Source: Deltaproteobacteria bacterium (GTDB taxonomy: Bacteria; Myxococcota_A; UBA796; GCA-2862545). Taken from it: 64,000 nt of DNA. Position 1 is the first letter of the stretch; every line of letters begins with the position of its first letter. Positions 34,637-45,155 of this stretch are shown here, piece by piece. The notes below the pieces were generated by a model. The model was not told the DNA's origin. It did not search any database and was given only the letters and a program-made list of their open reading frames with translations. The stretch is from NCBI GenBank assembly GCA_006226595.1, contig SBGP01000056.1, positions 1-64,000 of the forward strand, read 5' to 3'. The position numbers and the translations under genes are program-made.

Positions 34637-35485
34637 GTGAAGCTGCACGTCCTCCAACGCGGCACGGTGGTGTACACCGTCGACATCGGCGCGCGGTCCC
34701 TGACCATCGGGCGCGCACCCGACAACGACCTCATCCTGCGGGATCCGGACGTGTCGGGGCACCATGCCCTGCTGTACTGGGAAGCCGGCGAGCTGTGGGT
34801 CCGCGACCTCGGCAGTACCAACGGCACCTTCCACGCCGGGCAGCGCGTGAGCGTGATGCGCGTCGGTCCCGAAGACGAGCTGCGTCTCGGCGGGCTGCTG
34901 CTCCGGCTCGATGCCGGAGCCACGGCGGCCGCCGGCCTGGCGCTGCGCAAGGTCGGAGCCCCCGTCGCCGTGCCGGTCGAGAGCGGCTTCTCGCTGCCGG
35001 ACCATCCCGAGGCCGCGCTGTTCGTGGACACAGACGGGGTATGGCTGGACCTCGGCGCGGACCGACGGGCGCTGCCCATTGGCGAGCCCTTCGTCCTCGG
35101 CTCGGACCGCTTCGTGCTCGAGGAAGCCAGCGCGGTGGCGCCGACCGTACCGAAGGACGGCCTGTTTCCGTATGCGCTGCAAGTCGACCTGTCGGCCCCG
35201 CTCGCCGTATTGGGCGCACCGAGCCTCGAGCCCGTCGAGTACCGGTCCGAGGCGCGCGTGTCGCTGCTCTACGTGCTCTCCGAGACGCCGGGAACCTGGA
35301 TCGACAACGACGCCATCGGCCGCGGCGTCTGGGGACGCGACTGGGAGCGCCAGGGTGCGAACAACCTGAACGTCCTCGTGCATCGGGTTCGCAAGCAGGC
35401 CGAGGACCTGGGCTACGACCGACGCTTCATCGAGCGCGACCGCACGGCGATGCGCCTCGCCATCTCAGAGGCGCACCGCGACTAG
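34637..35485 (+). CDS. FHA-domain protein with C-terminal winged-helix-like domain
   Basis: A 282-aa protein. Residues 1-95 are a forkhead-associated domain, a phosphothreonine reader, with Gly-Arg at 25-26, Ser40-x-x-His43 and G-S-T-N-G at 59-63. The middle (100-200) is an unassigned beta-rich stretch. The last 75 residues (R-V-S-L-L-Y-V-L, then N-N-L-N-V-L-V-H-R-V-R-K-Q-A) resemble an OmpR-type winged helix, where the V-H-R-V-R-K run would be the recognition helix. It could thus turn a phospho-Thr signal into DNA binding. The GTG start has only GAGG three bases upstream. It is divergent from the kinase-ATPase-TPR gene. Confidence 0.85.
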   Translation: MKLHVLQRGTVVYTVDIGARSLTIGRAPDNDLILRDPDVSGHHALLYWEAGELWVRDLGSTNGTFHAGQRVSVMRVGPEDELRLGGLLLRLDAGATAAAGLALRKVGAPVAVPVESGFSLPDHPEAALFVDTDGVWLDLGADRRALPIGEPFVLGSDRFVLEEASAVAPTVPKDGLFPYALQVDLSAPLAVLGAPSLEPVEYRSEARVSLLYVLSETPGTWIDNDAIGRGVWGRDWERQGANNLNVLVHRVRKQAEDLGYDRRFIERDRTAMRLAISEAHRD

Positions 35486-35494
35486 GATCGCCGA

Positions 35495-36358
35495 CTAGGT
35501 CCGGGGAAGCACGCCCCCGAACTGCACGCGGTCGATGTCGAGGTCGTGGTGCTTCGACGCCGCGCGTCCACCGACGATGACCCGGCCCTCGGGAGCGGCC
35601 GCCTCGGCGATCTGCTTCACGTAGCTGACGAGGTCGAAGTTCTCGCGTTCGAGCACGATGCTGATCGCGACGAGCTCCGGACGTCGCTCGCGAACGAGTG
35701 CGAGGAGCTGATCCGTGGGCACGTCCGCGCCGAGGTACAGCAGGCGATAGCCGCGGTTGGCGAGGCGGAAGGCCACGCCGAGAAGCCCGAACTCGTGGTG
35801 CTCGCCAGCCGGCGTCGCGCAGATGGCCTCCGGTGCCGAAGCACCGCCGGGCTCCAGGCTGCGGGCCATCGCGAGGATCTGCTCGCGGCACCACGCGGAC
35901 ACGAAGTGCTCCTGGACGGTGCTCACCTCGCCGGCTTCCCAGCGATGCCCCGTCTCCTGGAGAACGGGGAGGAACAGCTCGTCGAGCAGCGTCTCGTACG
36001 GCAGGGTCACGAGTCGCTTGGTCACGCGCTCGGCACCGCGACGATCGTAGTCGAGCAGCGCCTCGAGGAGCACGTCACGCAGCCCCTCGATGCCCTCGGC
36101 GAGCGGCTGAGCCTGCTGCGCACCCTGAGTGGTGGGCACGCCCTCGTTGTTCACGATGGCGGCGGCCTCGGAGATTCGGTACCCGGCGGCCATCAGCTCC
36201 TGCACGCGGCGGAGCGTCGCGATGTCCTCGTCGGTGTACACGCGGTAGCCGGATCCCTCGGCGCGTTTCGGCTCGATGAGCCCATAGCGCCGCTCCCACG
36301 CGATGAGCGTGTTCTTCGGAATGCCGGTGATTTCGGAGACGGTCTTGATCCAGTACAT
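35495..36358 (-). CDS. carH: CarH/LitR-type B12-dependent photoreceptor repressor (MerR family)
   Basis: A 287-aa light-sensing repressor. Residues 1-70 are a MerR winged helix (A-W-E-R-R-Y-G-L-I-E-P, G-Y-R-V-Y-T). The four-helix cap carries the CarH photoreceptor motif W-x9-E-H as Trp140, Glu150 and His151. The Rossmann B12-binding domain has E-x-H-x-x-G (Glu186, His188, Gly191), His188 being the expected lower cobalt ligand. In the family, adenosylcobalamin-bound tetramers repress carotenoid genes in the dark and fall apart in light. It lies 22 nt after crtB as the last gene of the crtL-crtE-crtB operon, the same terminal position as in the Myxococcus carotenoid operon. Confidence 0.94.
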   Translation of the reverse strand: MYWIKTVSEITGIPKNTLIAWERRYGLIEPKRAEGSGYRVYTDEDIATLRRVQELMAAGYRISEAAAIVNNEGVPTTQGAQQAQPLAEGIEGLRDVLLEALLDYDRRGAERVTKRLVTLPYETLLDELFLPVLQETGHRWEAGEVSTVQEHFVSAWCREQILAMARSLEPGGASAPEAICATPAGEHHEFGLLGVAFRLANRGYRLLYLGADVPTDQLLALVRERRPELVAISIVLERENFDLVSYVKQIAEAAAPEGRVIVGGRAASKHHDLDIDRVQFGGVLPRT

Positions 36359-40905: not shown

Positions 40906-42377
40906 TGGGCGTCGTCGTCATCGGCGCCGGCATGGGCGGGCTCGCCGCCGCCATCGAGCTCGCGGCCACGGGCGTCGAGGTGGACCTGTTCGAGGCGGGT
41001 CCTCGCGTCGGTGGCAAGGCCGACGAAGTCCTCGTCGATGGCGTGGCCGTCGATACCGGACCGACCCTGCTCACCCTGCCGCACGTCGCCGCGGCCCTGT
41101 TCCGCGCCGGGGGACGCGACATCAGCGAGGCAGTCGACCTCGTTCGCCCGGATCCGGCCTTCCGCTACCACTACCCGGACCGCACCACCGTCGACGTCCA
41201 CCACGCCGTCGACGACACCCTGGCCTCGGTCGCCGCCTCCCTGGGCCCCGCCGCCGCCGAGCAGCTCGACGCCCACCTCGCGCGGGCACGTCGCATCTGG
41301 GAGGCCTCCTCGGACTACTTCGTGTTCGGGGCCGCTCCGACCTTCCAGCGCATCCTCACCCTCGGGCCCCGCGCATGGTGGAGCCTCGCGCGCATCGATG
41401 CCCACAAGACCCTGTGGGACGTGATCTGCGACGACGTCGAAGACGAGCGGCTCCGCTGGCTGCTCGCCCGCTACGCCACGTACAACGGGAGCGACGTGCG
41501 CACGGCCCCCGCGACGCTGGCATGCATCGCCTGGGTCGAGCTCGGGCTCGGCGCCTGGGGCATCCGCGGCGGCATGCACGCGCTCGCCACCGCCCTCGCC
41601 GACACGGCCCGCCAGCTCGGTGTCCGCATCCACCTCGACACGCCCGTCGAGCGCATCGAGGTCAACGCCGACCGCGCCGTGGCCGCCGTGCATGCCGGAC
41701 GACGCGTCGCGTGCGAAGCCGTGGTGTGCAACGCCGACGCCGCACACCTCTACGCAAGCCTGCTCCCCGAGTCCTCCCGCGACGCCGTCCGGGTGTCTCC
41801 GGACACCAGCACCTCGGGCTGGGTCGGCGTGTTCCGCGCGCGTCCCCAGGACGACCGGGTCGCGCACGAGGTCGTGTTCCCGGAGCACTACCTCGACGAG
41901 TTCGCCGACCTCTTCGGTCACCATCGCACACCGCGCGATCCCACGATCTACACCTGCGCACTGTCCCGCGCGCACGGCCGCGACACCTGGGACGACGGCG
42001 AGCCCGTGTTCGCGATGATCAACGCTCCTGCGCACGCGCCGGACGATCAGCCCGACTGGAAGGCCCTCGCGCGGCACCGCCTCGTGCGCTCGGGCCTGCT
42101 CGACCGCGACGACCGCCTGGTGTGGCAGCGCACACCGACCAGCCTGGCGCGGCGTTTTCCCGACACCGGCGGCGCGATCTACGGCGCCGCATCGAGCTCC
42201 CTGTTCTCGGCCTTCCGACGCCCCGCAAACCGTGTGCACAAGCTGCACGGCCTGTACCTGGCCGGCGGCAGCGCGCATCCGGGCGGAGGGGTGCCCCTGT
42301 GTCTGCAGTCCGGGCGGCAAGCCGCCTTCGAGCTCGTCTCCGACCTCGGTCTCTCTCACCAGCTGGTGGCCAAATGA
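40905..42377 (+). CDS. crtD: CrtI/CrtD-family carotenoid desaturase
   Basis: A 490-aa FAD-dependent phytoene-desaturase-family protein. The FAD loop is V-I-G-A-G-M-G-G-L-A-A-A at the N-terminus, then E-A-G-P-R-V-G-G-K-A. The C-terminal signature L-Y-L-A-G-G-S-A-H-P-G-G-G-V-P-L is typical of CrtI and CrtD proteins. Adjacency to CrtC, as in photosynthetic proteobacteria and Myxococcus, favours a 3,4-desaturase (CrtD) over the main phytoene desaturase, but the family fold alone cannot decide. It is coupled on both sides by overlapping stop-start codons (TGATG and ATGA). Confidence 0.88.
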   Translation: MGVVVIGAGMGGLAAAIELAATGVEVDLFEAGPRVGGKADEVLVDGVAVDTGPTLLTLPHVAAALFRAGGRDISEAVDLVRPDPAFRYHYPDRTTVDVHHAVDDTLASVAASLGPAAAEQLDAHLARARRIWEASSDYFVFGAAPTFQRILTLGPRAWWSLARIDAHKTLWDVICDDVEDERLRWLLARYATYNGSDVRTAPATLACIAWVELGLGAWGIRGGMHALATALADTARQLGVRIHLDTPVERIEVNADRAVAAVHAGRRVACEAVVCNADAAHLYASLLPESSRDAVRVSPDTSTSGWVGVFRARPQDDRVAHEVVFPEHYLDEFADLFGHHRTPRDPTIYTCALSRAHGRDTWDDGEPVFAMINAPAHAPDDQPDWKALARHRLVRSGLLDRDDRLVWQRTPTSLARRFPDTGGAIYGAASSSLFSAFRRPANRVHKLHGLYLAGGSAHPGGGVPLCLQSGRQAAFELVSDLGLSHQLVAK

Positions 42378-43021
42378 TCGCCCTGCTCCTCGCCTCCGCC
42401 TTCGGCGGTCAGTTCCTGCTCGAAATGGACACGGCCTCCGACGCCAAGGTGCCCGTGCTCGGCTGGCAGAAGTCCGTGACCCACACCCTCGCCCTGGTCG
42501 AGCTCACCGAGGACAACGAGTGGGTGCAGACCGTGTGCGACGTGGAGGTGCGCGACAAGGCGCCGCTCGCTCGCACCATCCTCCCCGATGCCTTCGTCAG
42601 CTCCCTGCCGGTGATCCGCGCGAAGATCGCCCTCGGAGAGGACCACTTCGAGGTCGACCTCGGCGTGTCGCGGGTGGGCTTCACCGAAGGCCCGATTCCC
42701 GAGACCGCGGACGCGCCCAACGTGATCGATCACGAGGGCGACGGCCGCCCTGGCGCCACGGTCCAGGTGATGATCATCGGCTTCGGCACCTACGGCCTCG
42801 ACGTCGTCCAGGAGTCGCGGGCCGTGCTCCACGGCAAGCGCGACGGCGACGGCTGGAGCGGCACCCTGGAGACGCAGCTGCTCGCCCAGCGCGTACTCTC
42901 CGCCGACCACCGGCTGCTGGCCGGGAGCCCCGAGCTGCGAACCGCCGACGAGCGCTCGTCGTTCACGCTCCACCCGACCACCGCGAAGTCCTGTGCCGAC
43001 CTGCCCAAGCTCGAGACCTGA
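42374..43021 (+). CDS. Secreted protein of unknown function at the end of the crtCD operon
   Basis: I do not recognise this 215-aa protein. Its ATG overlaps the desaturase stop (ATGA). The leader M-I-A-L-L-L-A-S-A-F-G-G is a short signal peptide without a lipobox. The mature part contains D-H-E-G-D-G-R-P-G, a calcium-loop-like segment common in secreted delta-proteobacterial proteins, in a beta-rich chain. Cys are few. Translational coupling to crtD suggests an envelope role related to carotenoid deposition, but this is only context. It is followed at once by the fold-back element. Confidence 0.72.
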   Translation: MIALLLASAFGGQFLLEMDTASDAKVPVLGWQKSVTHTLALVELTEDNEWVQTVCDVEVRDKAPLARTILPDAFVSSLPVIRAKIALGEDHFEVDLGVSRVGFTEGPIPETADAPNVIDHEGDGRPGATVQVMIIGFGTYGLDVVQESRAVLHGKRDGDGWSGTLETQLLAQRVLSADHRLLAGSPELRTADERSSFTLHPTTAKSCADLPKLET

Positions 43022-43024
43022 GGC

Positions 43025-43193
43025 CTAGTACCCACAACCAGAAGTGCTGTCCGGGATACCGCCGGTCCAGGTGCGTCGCCCGGGGTGGACGCGCCCGCGA
43101 AGCATGCTGGAGCATGTGCCAAGGGCCGGCCGGCGTGGGCGGCGTGCCTGGCTCGGCGCAAACCCGGACATGACCTCGGGGTGGGGGTACTAG
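43025..43193. repeat. Symmetric ~168-bp fold-back (long inverted repeat) element
   Basis: The gap between two convergent genes is one long imperfect inverted repeat. Ends read CTAGTACCC (43025) and GGGTACTAG (to 43193). Inner arms include TGTCCGGG pairing with CCCGGACA, and the exact centre is CATGCT-GG-AGCATG (43103-43116). Aligning the left arm with the reverse complement of the right arm by hand gives about 65-70% identity over 75 bp. The right end contains the TAG stop of the PDZ gene. No coding frame is credible. It could be a MITE-like element, a structured RNA or a large bidirectional terminator. Confidence 0.8.
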
Positions 43194-44170
43194 CCCTCTT
43201 CCTCGGGCATGGTCCGCCGCCGGATCTCGACCACCCGCTCGGGCTCGCCGGCGACGACGAGCTCGACCTCGGTGCCTTCGGGACCGAGCGCCCGCTCGAC
43301 GAACTCGCGCAGCGCGAGACCCGCGGTGGGCTCGCCGTCGATCTCGACGACGACGTCCCCCGGGCCGAGGCCGGCTTCGGCTGCGGCTCCGCCGTCGAGC
43401 ACCCGGGTGACCTCGATGCCATCGGGGTGTTCGCGGACCTCGGCGCCGAGGCCGGCGGTCTGGTAGGGCGGCAGGGCGAGGTCGGCGACGACGTCCTGTC
43501 CACGCTTGGGCGAGACCTCCACCGGCTCGGACCAGATGGTGAACACGCCATCCTTGCGGAACGCGCGCACCTGGCAGTCCGCGGGTGCGCGCGACTCGAG
43601 GTAGTAGCTGCCGTCGACGTCGGTCGCGACGCGGTTCCAGCAGCCCTGCACCCAGACCTTGCCGGCAGGACGCCCGTCCGCGTGGGTGACCATGCCAGTG
43701 ACTACGGCGGGGCCGCCCTCGAAGGACACGACCTCGTCGCAGGCGCCGTTGGAGAACGTGATCTGCGCCGCGCCGTAGCCGTCGAAGACGAGGCGGCCCG
43801 AAGTGACGCCGTCGGGGATGCGAAAGCGGACGGCATCCTCGTCGATACGGAGCTTGGCGCCCATACGGCCCGGGAACATCACGGCCCCCGAGGTTCCCGG
43901 GGGCACACCGGCCACCAGGCAGTTCACCCAACCCGGCTCGGCAGGCTCGATCTCGGGCTTCACGGGCTCGAGGAGCGGACGTTCCTCTCGCGGAGGACGG
44001 CGGCGACCGCGGACGATCTCGTCGCTCTGCACGGGAGCGACGACCACGGGCTCGGGACGCGCAAGCTCGCGCTCGACCACTTCGCCGCCTCGCTCAGGTG
44101 CGAGCAGCCACCACAGGCCGAGTGCGAGGAGCAGCCCGAGGGCCACGCCGGCTGGCACGCGCTTGTCCAC
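43190..44170 (-). CDS. Membrane-anchored PDZ-domain protein
   Basis: A 326-aa protein with one N-terminal membrane helix (A-G-V-A-L-G-L-L-L-A-L-G-L-W-W-L-L) and a periplasmic body. After a Pro/Arg/Glu-rich linker (about 30-70) comes a beta-rich region including a carboxypeptidase-regulatory-like segment (V-T-G-M-V-T-H-A-D-G-R-P-A-G, then D-V-D-G-S-Y-Y-L). The C-terminal 90 residues are a PDZ domain (G-A-A-A-E-A-G-L-G-P-G-D-V-V-V-E-I-D-G). No protease domain is present, so it probably acts as a binding or scaffold protein. The GTG start has GGAGG close by. Its stop codon lies inside the right end of the fold-back element. Confidence 0.82.
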   Translation of the reverse strand: MDKRVPAGVALGLLLALGLWWLLAPERGGEVVERELARPEPVVVAPVQSDEIVRGRRRPPREERPLLEPVKPEIEPAEPGWVNCLVAGVPPGTSGAVMFPGRMGAKLRIDEDAVRFRIPDGVTSGRLVFDGYGAAQITFSNGACDEVVSFEGGPAVVTGMVTHADGRPAGKVWVQGCWNRVATDVDGSYYLESRAPADCQVRAFRKDGVFTIWSEPVEVSPKRGQDVVADLALPPYQTAGLGAEVREHPDGIEVTRVLDGGAAAEAGLGPGDVVVEIDGEPTAGLALREFVERALGPEGTEVELVVAGEPERVVEIRRRTMPEEEG

Positions 44171-44261
44171 GGTCCTCCACCGAATCGCCCCTCCCCTATT
44201 GCGCTGTGGGGACCGCGGCCGTTCCCCTGACGGAAGCTGACCGACGGTGTAGGCTGACGCC

Positions 44262-45155
44262 GTGAAACGCATCCACCTCCCCAACAGCCGCGAAGCCCTC
44301 ACCTTCTCCGCCGACGTCCGGCGCCTGCCGGGCGAGGATCCGTGGCGCTGGGAAGGCGTGCTCCGACTCGGGGGCATGGCACTCGAGAGCGGGGCCAAGG
44401 CGGGCGCCTTCGCGTCGGCATGGATCGCGTGCCTTCCGTGGACCGACCGCAAGCACGAGCGCACCGAGGTGATCACGCTGTCGCTGATCACCGACCAGGC
44501 CCTGTCTCGCGAGCAGGTGGGTGCGTTGTGCCGACCGATCCTGCGCTCCGGGCGCCGGTGGTCCATGGACGGCGTGGTCACGCTGCCCACCGACGCCTTC
44601 CCCGCGCTCACCGCGAAGGACGAGCACATCTACCGCCTGTGGCGGCAGGACCGCCAGGGCCCCTACCGCCTGGCGCTGCGCAAGCTGGGGCCCCCGAGCG
44701 AGACCGAGCGACTCGACGAGGGCGCGCCGCCGGACGGACCCGAGGAGTATCTGAACGCCATCGCCGACACCGGAACCGACCCGGGAGACCGCTTCGATCG
44801 TGAGCGGCTCAAGCTCGCCTTCGCGACGCGCATCGCCCGCTCCATCGTCCAGGCGGACGGCGTGCTCGACGACCGCGAAGAACAGTACCTGCGCGAGAAC
44901 TTTGGCGGGGAGGTCCTCGCGAAGTTCGGACTCGACGAGGAAGCCAAGCTCGACCAGGCGATGGCCGAAGCCGAGGCCGAGCTGCCCGGCGCACTCGGCC
45001 ACCACGAGAAGCTCGCGCTGCTGTCGAGCTTCTTCGCCGCGTGCTGGGCCGACGGCAACGTCGACGTCCGCGAGCTGCGCGCACTCCGCGATGCCAGCGA
45101 GCTGCTCGGCCTGCACCCGCAAGAGGTCGCGGGCTACCTGCTCAAGGTGAAGTAG
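44262..45155 (+). CDS. TerB-like domain protein
   Basis: A 297-aa cytoplasmic protein. The first 180 residues are unassigned. Residues about 185-295 form a TerB-like helical bundle: I-A-R-S-I-V-Q-A-D-G-V-L-D-D-R-E-E-Q-Y-L and later F-F-A-A-C-W-A-D-G-N-V-D-V-R-E-L, two half-repeats each with the A-D-G-x-(L/V)-D-x-R-E acidic motif that binds metal in the tellurite-resistance TerB family. The GTG start lacks a strong ribosome site. It is divergent from the PDZ gene. No other ter genes are nearby, so a tellurite link should not be assumed. Confidence 0.82.
   Translation: MKRIHLPNSREALTFSADVRRLPGEDPWRWEGVLRLGGMALESGAKAGAFASAWIACLPWTDRKHERTEVITLSLITDQALSREQVGALCRPILRSGRRWSMDGVVTLPTDAFPALTAKDEHIYRLWRQDRQGPYRLALRKLGPPSETERLDEGAPPDGPEEYLNAIADTGTDPGDRFDRERLKLAFATRIARSIVQADGVLDDREEQYLRENFGGEVLAKFGLDEEAKLDQAMAEAEAELPGALGHHEKLALLSSFFAACWADGNVDVRELRALRDASELLGLHPQEVAGYLLKVK

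Follow-up and report, generated by a model that had tools for sequence, protein, structure and literature searches.

A 161-bp imperfect palindrome between two convergent genes is probably a decayed MITE-like element of a CTAG-targeting family

The window analysed here comprises 64,000 nucleotides of contig SBGP01000056.1 of a deltaproteobacterial genome (assembly GCA_006226595.1). Self-complementarity analysis of the window confirmed a fold-back sequence that spans 43025-43193 with its axis at 43109 and is situated between two convergent genes. Its parts and the flanking genes are as follows.

42374-43021, plus strand: convergent left neighbour, encoding a protein of 215 aa that has no Pfam match; its start codon (ATG at 42374) is our choice, and its TGA stop (43019-43021) is located just outside the element, three bases ahead of the left CTAG
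43025-43028, no strand: left CTAG, read as one copy of a 4-bp target duplication (from the sequence, and from the 10 of 14 copies with CTAG at both ends, a partly circular count)
43025-43065, plus strand: left arm, type B, identical at 37 of 41 positions to the B arm of copy L004
43029-43189, no strand: element proper, an imperfect palindrome of 161 bp and the longest copy found of the family named F1 here (from complementarity, folding and copies)
43153-43193, minus strand: right arm, type A, identical at 28 of 29 positions to the A arm of copy L004
43190-43193, no strand: right CTAG, read as the other target copy (the same CTAG ends the PDZ ortholog of the congener G001, without an element)
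43190-44629, minus strand: gene for a 479-aa PDZ-domain protein (Pfam PF00595, E 7.7e-11), convergent right neighbour

As pointed out in the initial annotation, the TAG stop of the PDZ gene, which is encoded on the minus strand and appears as CTA at 43190-43192, lies within the right end of the element. The reading frames passing through the 161 bp are overhangs of the flanking ORFs, and the element is too short to encode a transposase.

Among 127,664 centres scored in the window, the palindrome at axis 43109 obtained the top score (0.61, compared to a mean of 0.29 with a standard deviation of 0.057), and it is the sole inverted repeat of at least 40 nt within 500 bp in the window. Its ends CTAGTACCC and GGGTACTAG, the inner pair TGTCCGGG and CCCGGACA and the centre CATGCTGGAGCATG at 43103-43116 were all found as initially described. 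The complementarity of 65-70% given there holds if G-T pairs are included (60 of 87 positions about the axis, 69%) or in the outer 62 nt of the arms (76%), but not for strict pairing, which amounts to 53 of 87 positions (61%). The midpoint of the central hexamer pair lies at 43109.5 and deviates from the main axis by half a base. Folded as RNA, the window copy is predicted to be far more stable than shuffled sequences on both strands, with -120.5 kcal/mol (z -6.8) on the plus strand and -107.8 kcal/mol (z -5.0) on the minus strand, and in each case none of 200 shuffles was as low. The two arms of the window copy, A and B, agree at 31 of 41 positions. Since each of them is closer to its counterpart in L004 than to the other arm, the palindrome owes much of its imperfection, judged from the arm sequences, to inheritance and not to erosion in place of a formerly perfect one.

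When the own genome (7.23 Mb in 117 contigs) was searched at the DNA level, eight loci were recovered at E < 1e-3, the window locus among them. With R1, a sequence-only profile derived from 11 arms, 29 matches were obtained at E <= 10, and those at E <= 0.01 correspond to 10 loci, referred to as strict copies. R1 matches the left arm of the window at 43025-43064 (E 1e-9) and the right arm at 43154-43193 (E 2.7e-10), both arms being part of the model. Four weaker copies (E 0.03, 0.05, 0.55, and 0.65) were accepted by eye, resulting in about 14 diverged F1 copies in total, among which the two arm types A and B recur. The weak matches L052, L055, L056, and L065 were inspected and rejected, and L057, L060-L064, and L066 are outside the F1 count.

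F1 was not found in the 20 other genomes searched in the taxonomic family (21 including the own genome). Single R1 matches in G002 and G029 were rejected as F1 due to their appearance as coding sequence. A DNA search over 29 genomes, again including the own one, gave elsewhere only short and weak matches; the best of these (G015, L031, E 6e-5) reads as coding sequence as well and was not accepted as a copy. Scanning genome_contigs for the 18-base core AAGTCATGTCCGGGTTTG returned five records, none with a second arm, which were taken as chance matches in genes. Viral contigs yielded nothing when searched with the carotenoid gene situated to the left of the element. F1 is thus apparently limited to the species. 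Of the outcomes named in the initial annotation as speaking against a genuine element, the lack of similar sequence in relatives was indeed observed, but the palindrome has many copies in its own genome and folds far better than shuffled sequence.

Among the 10 strict copies, CTAG is present at both ends in seven, one end is altered by a single base in two (L006 and L008), and one copy (L050) has no right end. CTAG is palindromic and reads as a TAG stop on both strands, and direct and inverted duplications of it are therefore indistinguishable. For all 14 copies, the number with CTAG at both ends is 10, yet the R1 profile contains the CTAG positions and the four weak copies were accepted partly on account of their CTAG ends, so that counts over 14 copies are partly circular and those over the strict copies less affected. 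The altered ends are CTCG in L006, GTAG in L008, and CAAG in L051, one end each. In case of the truncated copies L002 and L005, the remaining arm directly abuts a CTAG; this counts against an insertion, as it needs a deletion that ended exactly at CTAG.

Gene stops were scored by a codon-position rule of our own and not by a gene caller. By this rule, in all 14 copies at least one end coincides with the TAG stop of a gene, and in eight of the 14 both ends do so, seven of these having CTAG at both ends. The gene left of L005 failed the rule, but the translation of its frame looks like a plausible protein.

The genomic background of CTAG was determined in a 400-kb sample (stretches L104-L123 of G000), where the tetranucleotide was seen 97 times compared to 1113 occurrences expected from base composition, an approximately 11-fold depletion. 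After sites near stretch ends were set aside, 85 were left, of which 43 are gene stops, five are located inside genes, and 37 are unclassified; at eight of the 85, a subset of the 43 stops, one CTAG serves as the stop of two convergent genes, which is possible because CTAG reads TAG on both strands. Sites of this shared type are enriched among F1 copies, with 5 of 10 strict copies (p 0.004) and 7 of all 14 (p 0.0008) compared to 8 of 85 in the background. With the rule relaxed to a gene stop no farther than 120 bp away on both sides, 10 of 13 F1 copies and 23 of 85 background sites qualified (p 0.0008). Among 145 convergent pairs from the sample and the window, a list containing many long gaps that are probably wrong calls, eight have one common CTAG, and in four CTAG occurs at both stops, the gap measuring 0 to 42 bp.

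Some further observations concern the same contexts. By far the commonest context of TAG stops in the 400-kb sample is GTAG (184, compared to 52 for CTAG). At 35482-35498 of the window, two convergent stops are separated by CTAG, 9 bp, and CTAG, perhaps what is left of an almost completely erased element of this class. Around 18272 of L120, two convergent genes meet without a gap at CTAGCTAG, as though nothing but the duplicated target were left. Around 12325 of L107, GGGGGGTACTAG, which is similar to the last 12 bases of F1, occurs just ahead of the stop of a convergent gene.

Element-free sites were observed in the congener G001. The best match of the PDZ protein in G001 is 54% identical. 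The CTAG at which its gene terminates is at the same time the end of a convergent gene whose sequence resembles a short-chain dehydrogenase, and no element is present there. The first bases to the right of this CTAG, CTAGCCCTC, match the window. Due to the lack of the window's left gene at this locus, the comparison covers the right flank only. For the right gene of L006, the G001 match (80%) terminates in CTAG, and the sequence beyond it reads as the end of a convergent gene; the G012 match likewise ends in CTAG. In G001, the stop of the gene matching the left gene of L008 is not part of a CTAG, in agreement with the GTAG left end of this copy; the right CTAG alone would then be the target. 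No pair of alleles with and without the element and with both flanks alike was found, each of the two G001 loci (PDZ and L006) sharing one flanking gene.

Taking these observations together, the palindrome in the window is, in our view, likely the longest found copy of F1 and F1 a decayed, non-autonomous, palindromic MITE-like family with CTAG as the target that it duplicates. The initial annotation had proposed a decayed MITE, a structured non-coding RNA or an oversized bidirectional terminator; the first of these is supported by the dispersed copies (10 loci at E <= 0.01), by terminal inverted repeats without coding capacity, by the CTAG on both sides, by the empty, pre-existing CTAG at two gene ends of G001, and by internal deletions. 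The position of the PDZ stop within the right end had been attributed to insertion or co-option; insertion into a CTAG that already served as a stop, as in the G001 ortholog, explains it better than co-option.

Between the boundary tetranucleotides, F1 measures 161 bp at most and 18 bp at least, and internal deletions with both ends retained are evident from the alignment. Unlike the window copy, short copies have little or no folding advantage over shuffles. When L002, L003, and L004 were compared to the window structure in three pairwise comparisons, two pairs had changed on both sides in a compensatory manner, six one-sided changes kept the pair and 11 broke it. Hence pairing is not maintained by compensatory change between F1 copies, which argues, for these few sequences, against selection for RNA structure. 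In addition, Rfam at gathering scores detected only a tRNA in the window and nothing at the palindrome, and the reading as a structured non-coding RNA is not supported.

Irrespective of its origin, the element might be retained because it terminates transcription, or acts as a roadblock to it, in both directions between convergent genes. The very stable hairpin of the window copy and the location of 10 of 13 copies between convergent genes under the 120-bp rule, compared to 23 of 85 background CTAG sites, agree with this possibility. We nevertheless consider it improbable: between 42700 and 43600, no site with a G+C-rich stem followed by a T run, as in intrinsic terminators, was found, leaving the suggested oversized terminator without positive evidence; copies erode to lengths at which the hairpin is no better than shuffles; broken pairs outnumber compensatory ones; and none of the relatives retained the element at the orthologous gene ends examined.

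A second MITE-like family, F2, is present in the same genome, e.g., at L072, L075, L080, and L089. Its pattern CTAGCAGGCTGCTGAAA with up to two mismatches matched 62 times in the own genome, while the reversed control gave no match. Both ends were visible in nine F2 elements, most of which measure about 185 or 235 bp and one 63 bp. Eight of them have CTAG at both ends and one has CCAG, and in eight of nine a gene stop is located within 120 bp on both sides. F1 and F2 share an imperfect palindrome over the whole length, CTAG ends and stop-codon sites, but F2 differs by its ends CAGGCTGCTGAAA, its many more copies and a higher mean pairwise identity (0.90 over six copies, compared to 0.72 over nine F1 copies), making F2 the younger family. 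With one mismatch, the F2 pattern is present in 4 of the 20 other genomes searched in the taxonomic family. Several contigs of the own genome end within F2 repeats, so that the assembly may lack an autonomous copy. In a plasmid search with F2, only short parts of 20 records matched, two of which were inspected: a plasmid of Paracoccus versutus, a distant lineage, carries an F2-like end pair about 165 bp apart (L165, 2505-2670), and a Bradyrhizobium record a single F2 end. Viral contigs gave eight stretches, with single F2 ends only.

No transposase of F1 was found, as neither PF01609 nor NF033551 has a match in the own genome. In the order, 5 of 30 IS1182-type loci have matching terminal repeats directly inside two CTAGs, as F1 does, and the others display no matching end pair at two CTAGs within the stretches examined. 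Different from F1, IS1182 elements encode a transposase, and their end sequences appear distinct: the ends of L170, CAGCCTGTGCTGCAAA, resemble F2, but the F1 ends are not obviously similar, and the F1 terminal repeat matches neither F2 nor any IS1182 end observed. For ISPse1 of the IS1182 family, 16/16 repeats and a 4-bp duplication are given (PMC3281130). We count the common CTAG target of F1, the younger F2 and the relatives' IS1182-type elements in favour of the MITE reading.

MITEPsy1 of Pseudomonas syringae pv. phaseolicola is likewise short and non-coding, carries terminal inverted repeats and inserts into CTAG or YTAA, which it duplicates; it is 100 nt long with repeats of 18 nt, was shown to move and is attributed to ISPsy2 of the IS5 family (PMC3189936). 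Unlike MITEPsy1, F1 has a full length of 161 bp in the window, is palindromic throughout, has other ends and is known from diverged copies only.

Copies L051 and L053 are chimeras in which an F2 left end is joined to an F1 right arm, and the left end of L004 is F2-like. One mobile element could have replaced another at the same gene end, for which IS1272, an IS1182-family member, provides a precedent: like F1 it is associated with hairpins at gene ends, but it swaps such stem-loops without target duplication (PMC5678879, PMC4923244). In contrast to IS1272, F1 and F2 are flanked by CTAG on both sides in most of their copies, and the two G001 sites are bare CTAGs without stem-loops. A nested insertion followed by deletion accounts for the chimeras equally well and is the reading we regard as best, so that replacement seems very unlikely.

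REP/BIME repeats moved by RAYT transposases are dispersed intergenic palindromes, as is F1, and the genome contains three Y1_Tnp genes above cut-off (L219, L220, and L221), but no F1 was found near them (9,918 bases searched, best E 0.69, no core motif) and CTAG at both ends is not known as a feature of REPs, which leaves a REP-like origin of F1 with hardly any probability.

For the decayed MITE-like family, a plausible course of events can be outlined. A transposase, presumably supplied in trans, would have inserted F1 into a CTAG and duplicated these 4 bp, the second CTAG being the presumed product of insertion. As CTAG is rare, about half of its sites are TAG stops and some of these are shared, such an insertion would leave each neighbouring gene with an intact stop, at little cost. 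Later, point changes and internal deletions would have eroded the copies, while the boundary stop codons would be kept, presumably by selection on the stops themselves.

Going one step further, it is tempting to speculate, with somewhat less than even confidence, that the shared CTAG stops of convergent genes represent a safe harbour for CTAG-targeting elements. One shared stop would be converted into two private stops, overlapping gene pairs would be separated again and again, and CTAG...CTAG gaps would be left as fossils, down to the CTAGCTAG of L120. In the portions of the literature on CTAG, stop codons, convergent genes, MITE, and IS1182 that were available, no statement of this idea was found, which does not show that it is unpublished.

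A striking hairpin is thus explained by an ordinary process. The kind of element is already known, but the stop-codon logic may be worth following. A preference for CTAG, a tetranucleotide rare in genes and frequent at TAG stops, can render insertion nearly harmless, and hairpins can end up between convergent genes without selection for termination. A cheap genome-wide test suggests itself, in which the CTAG...CTAG convergent gaps of this genome are compared to shared CTAG stops at the orthologous places in relatives.
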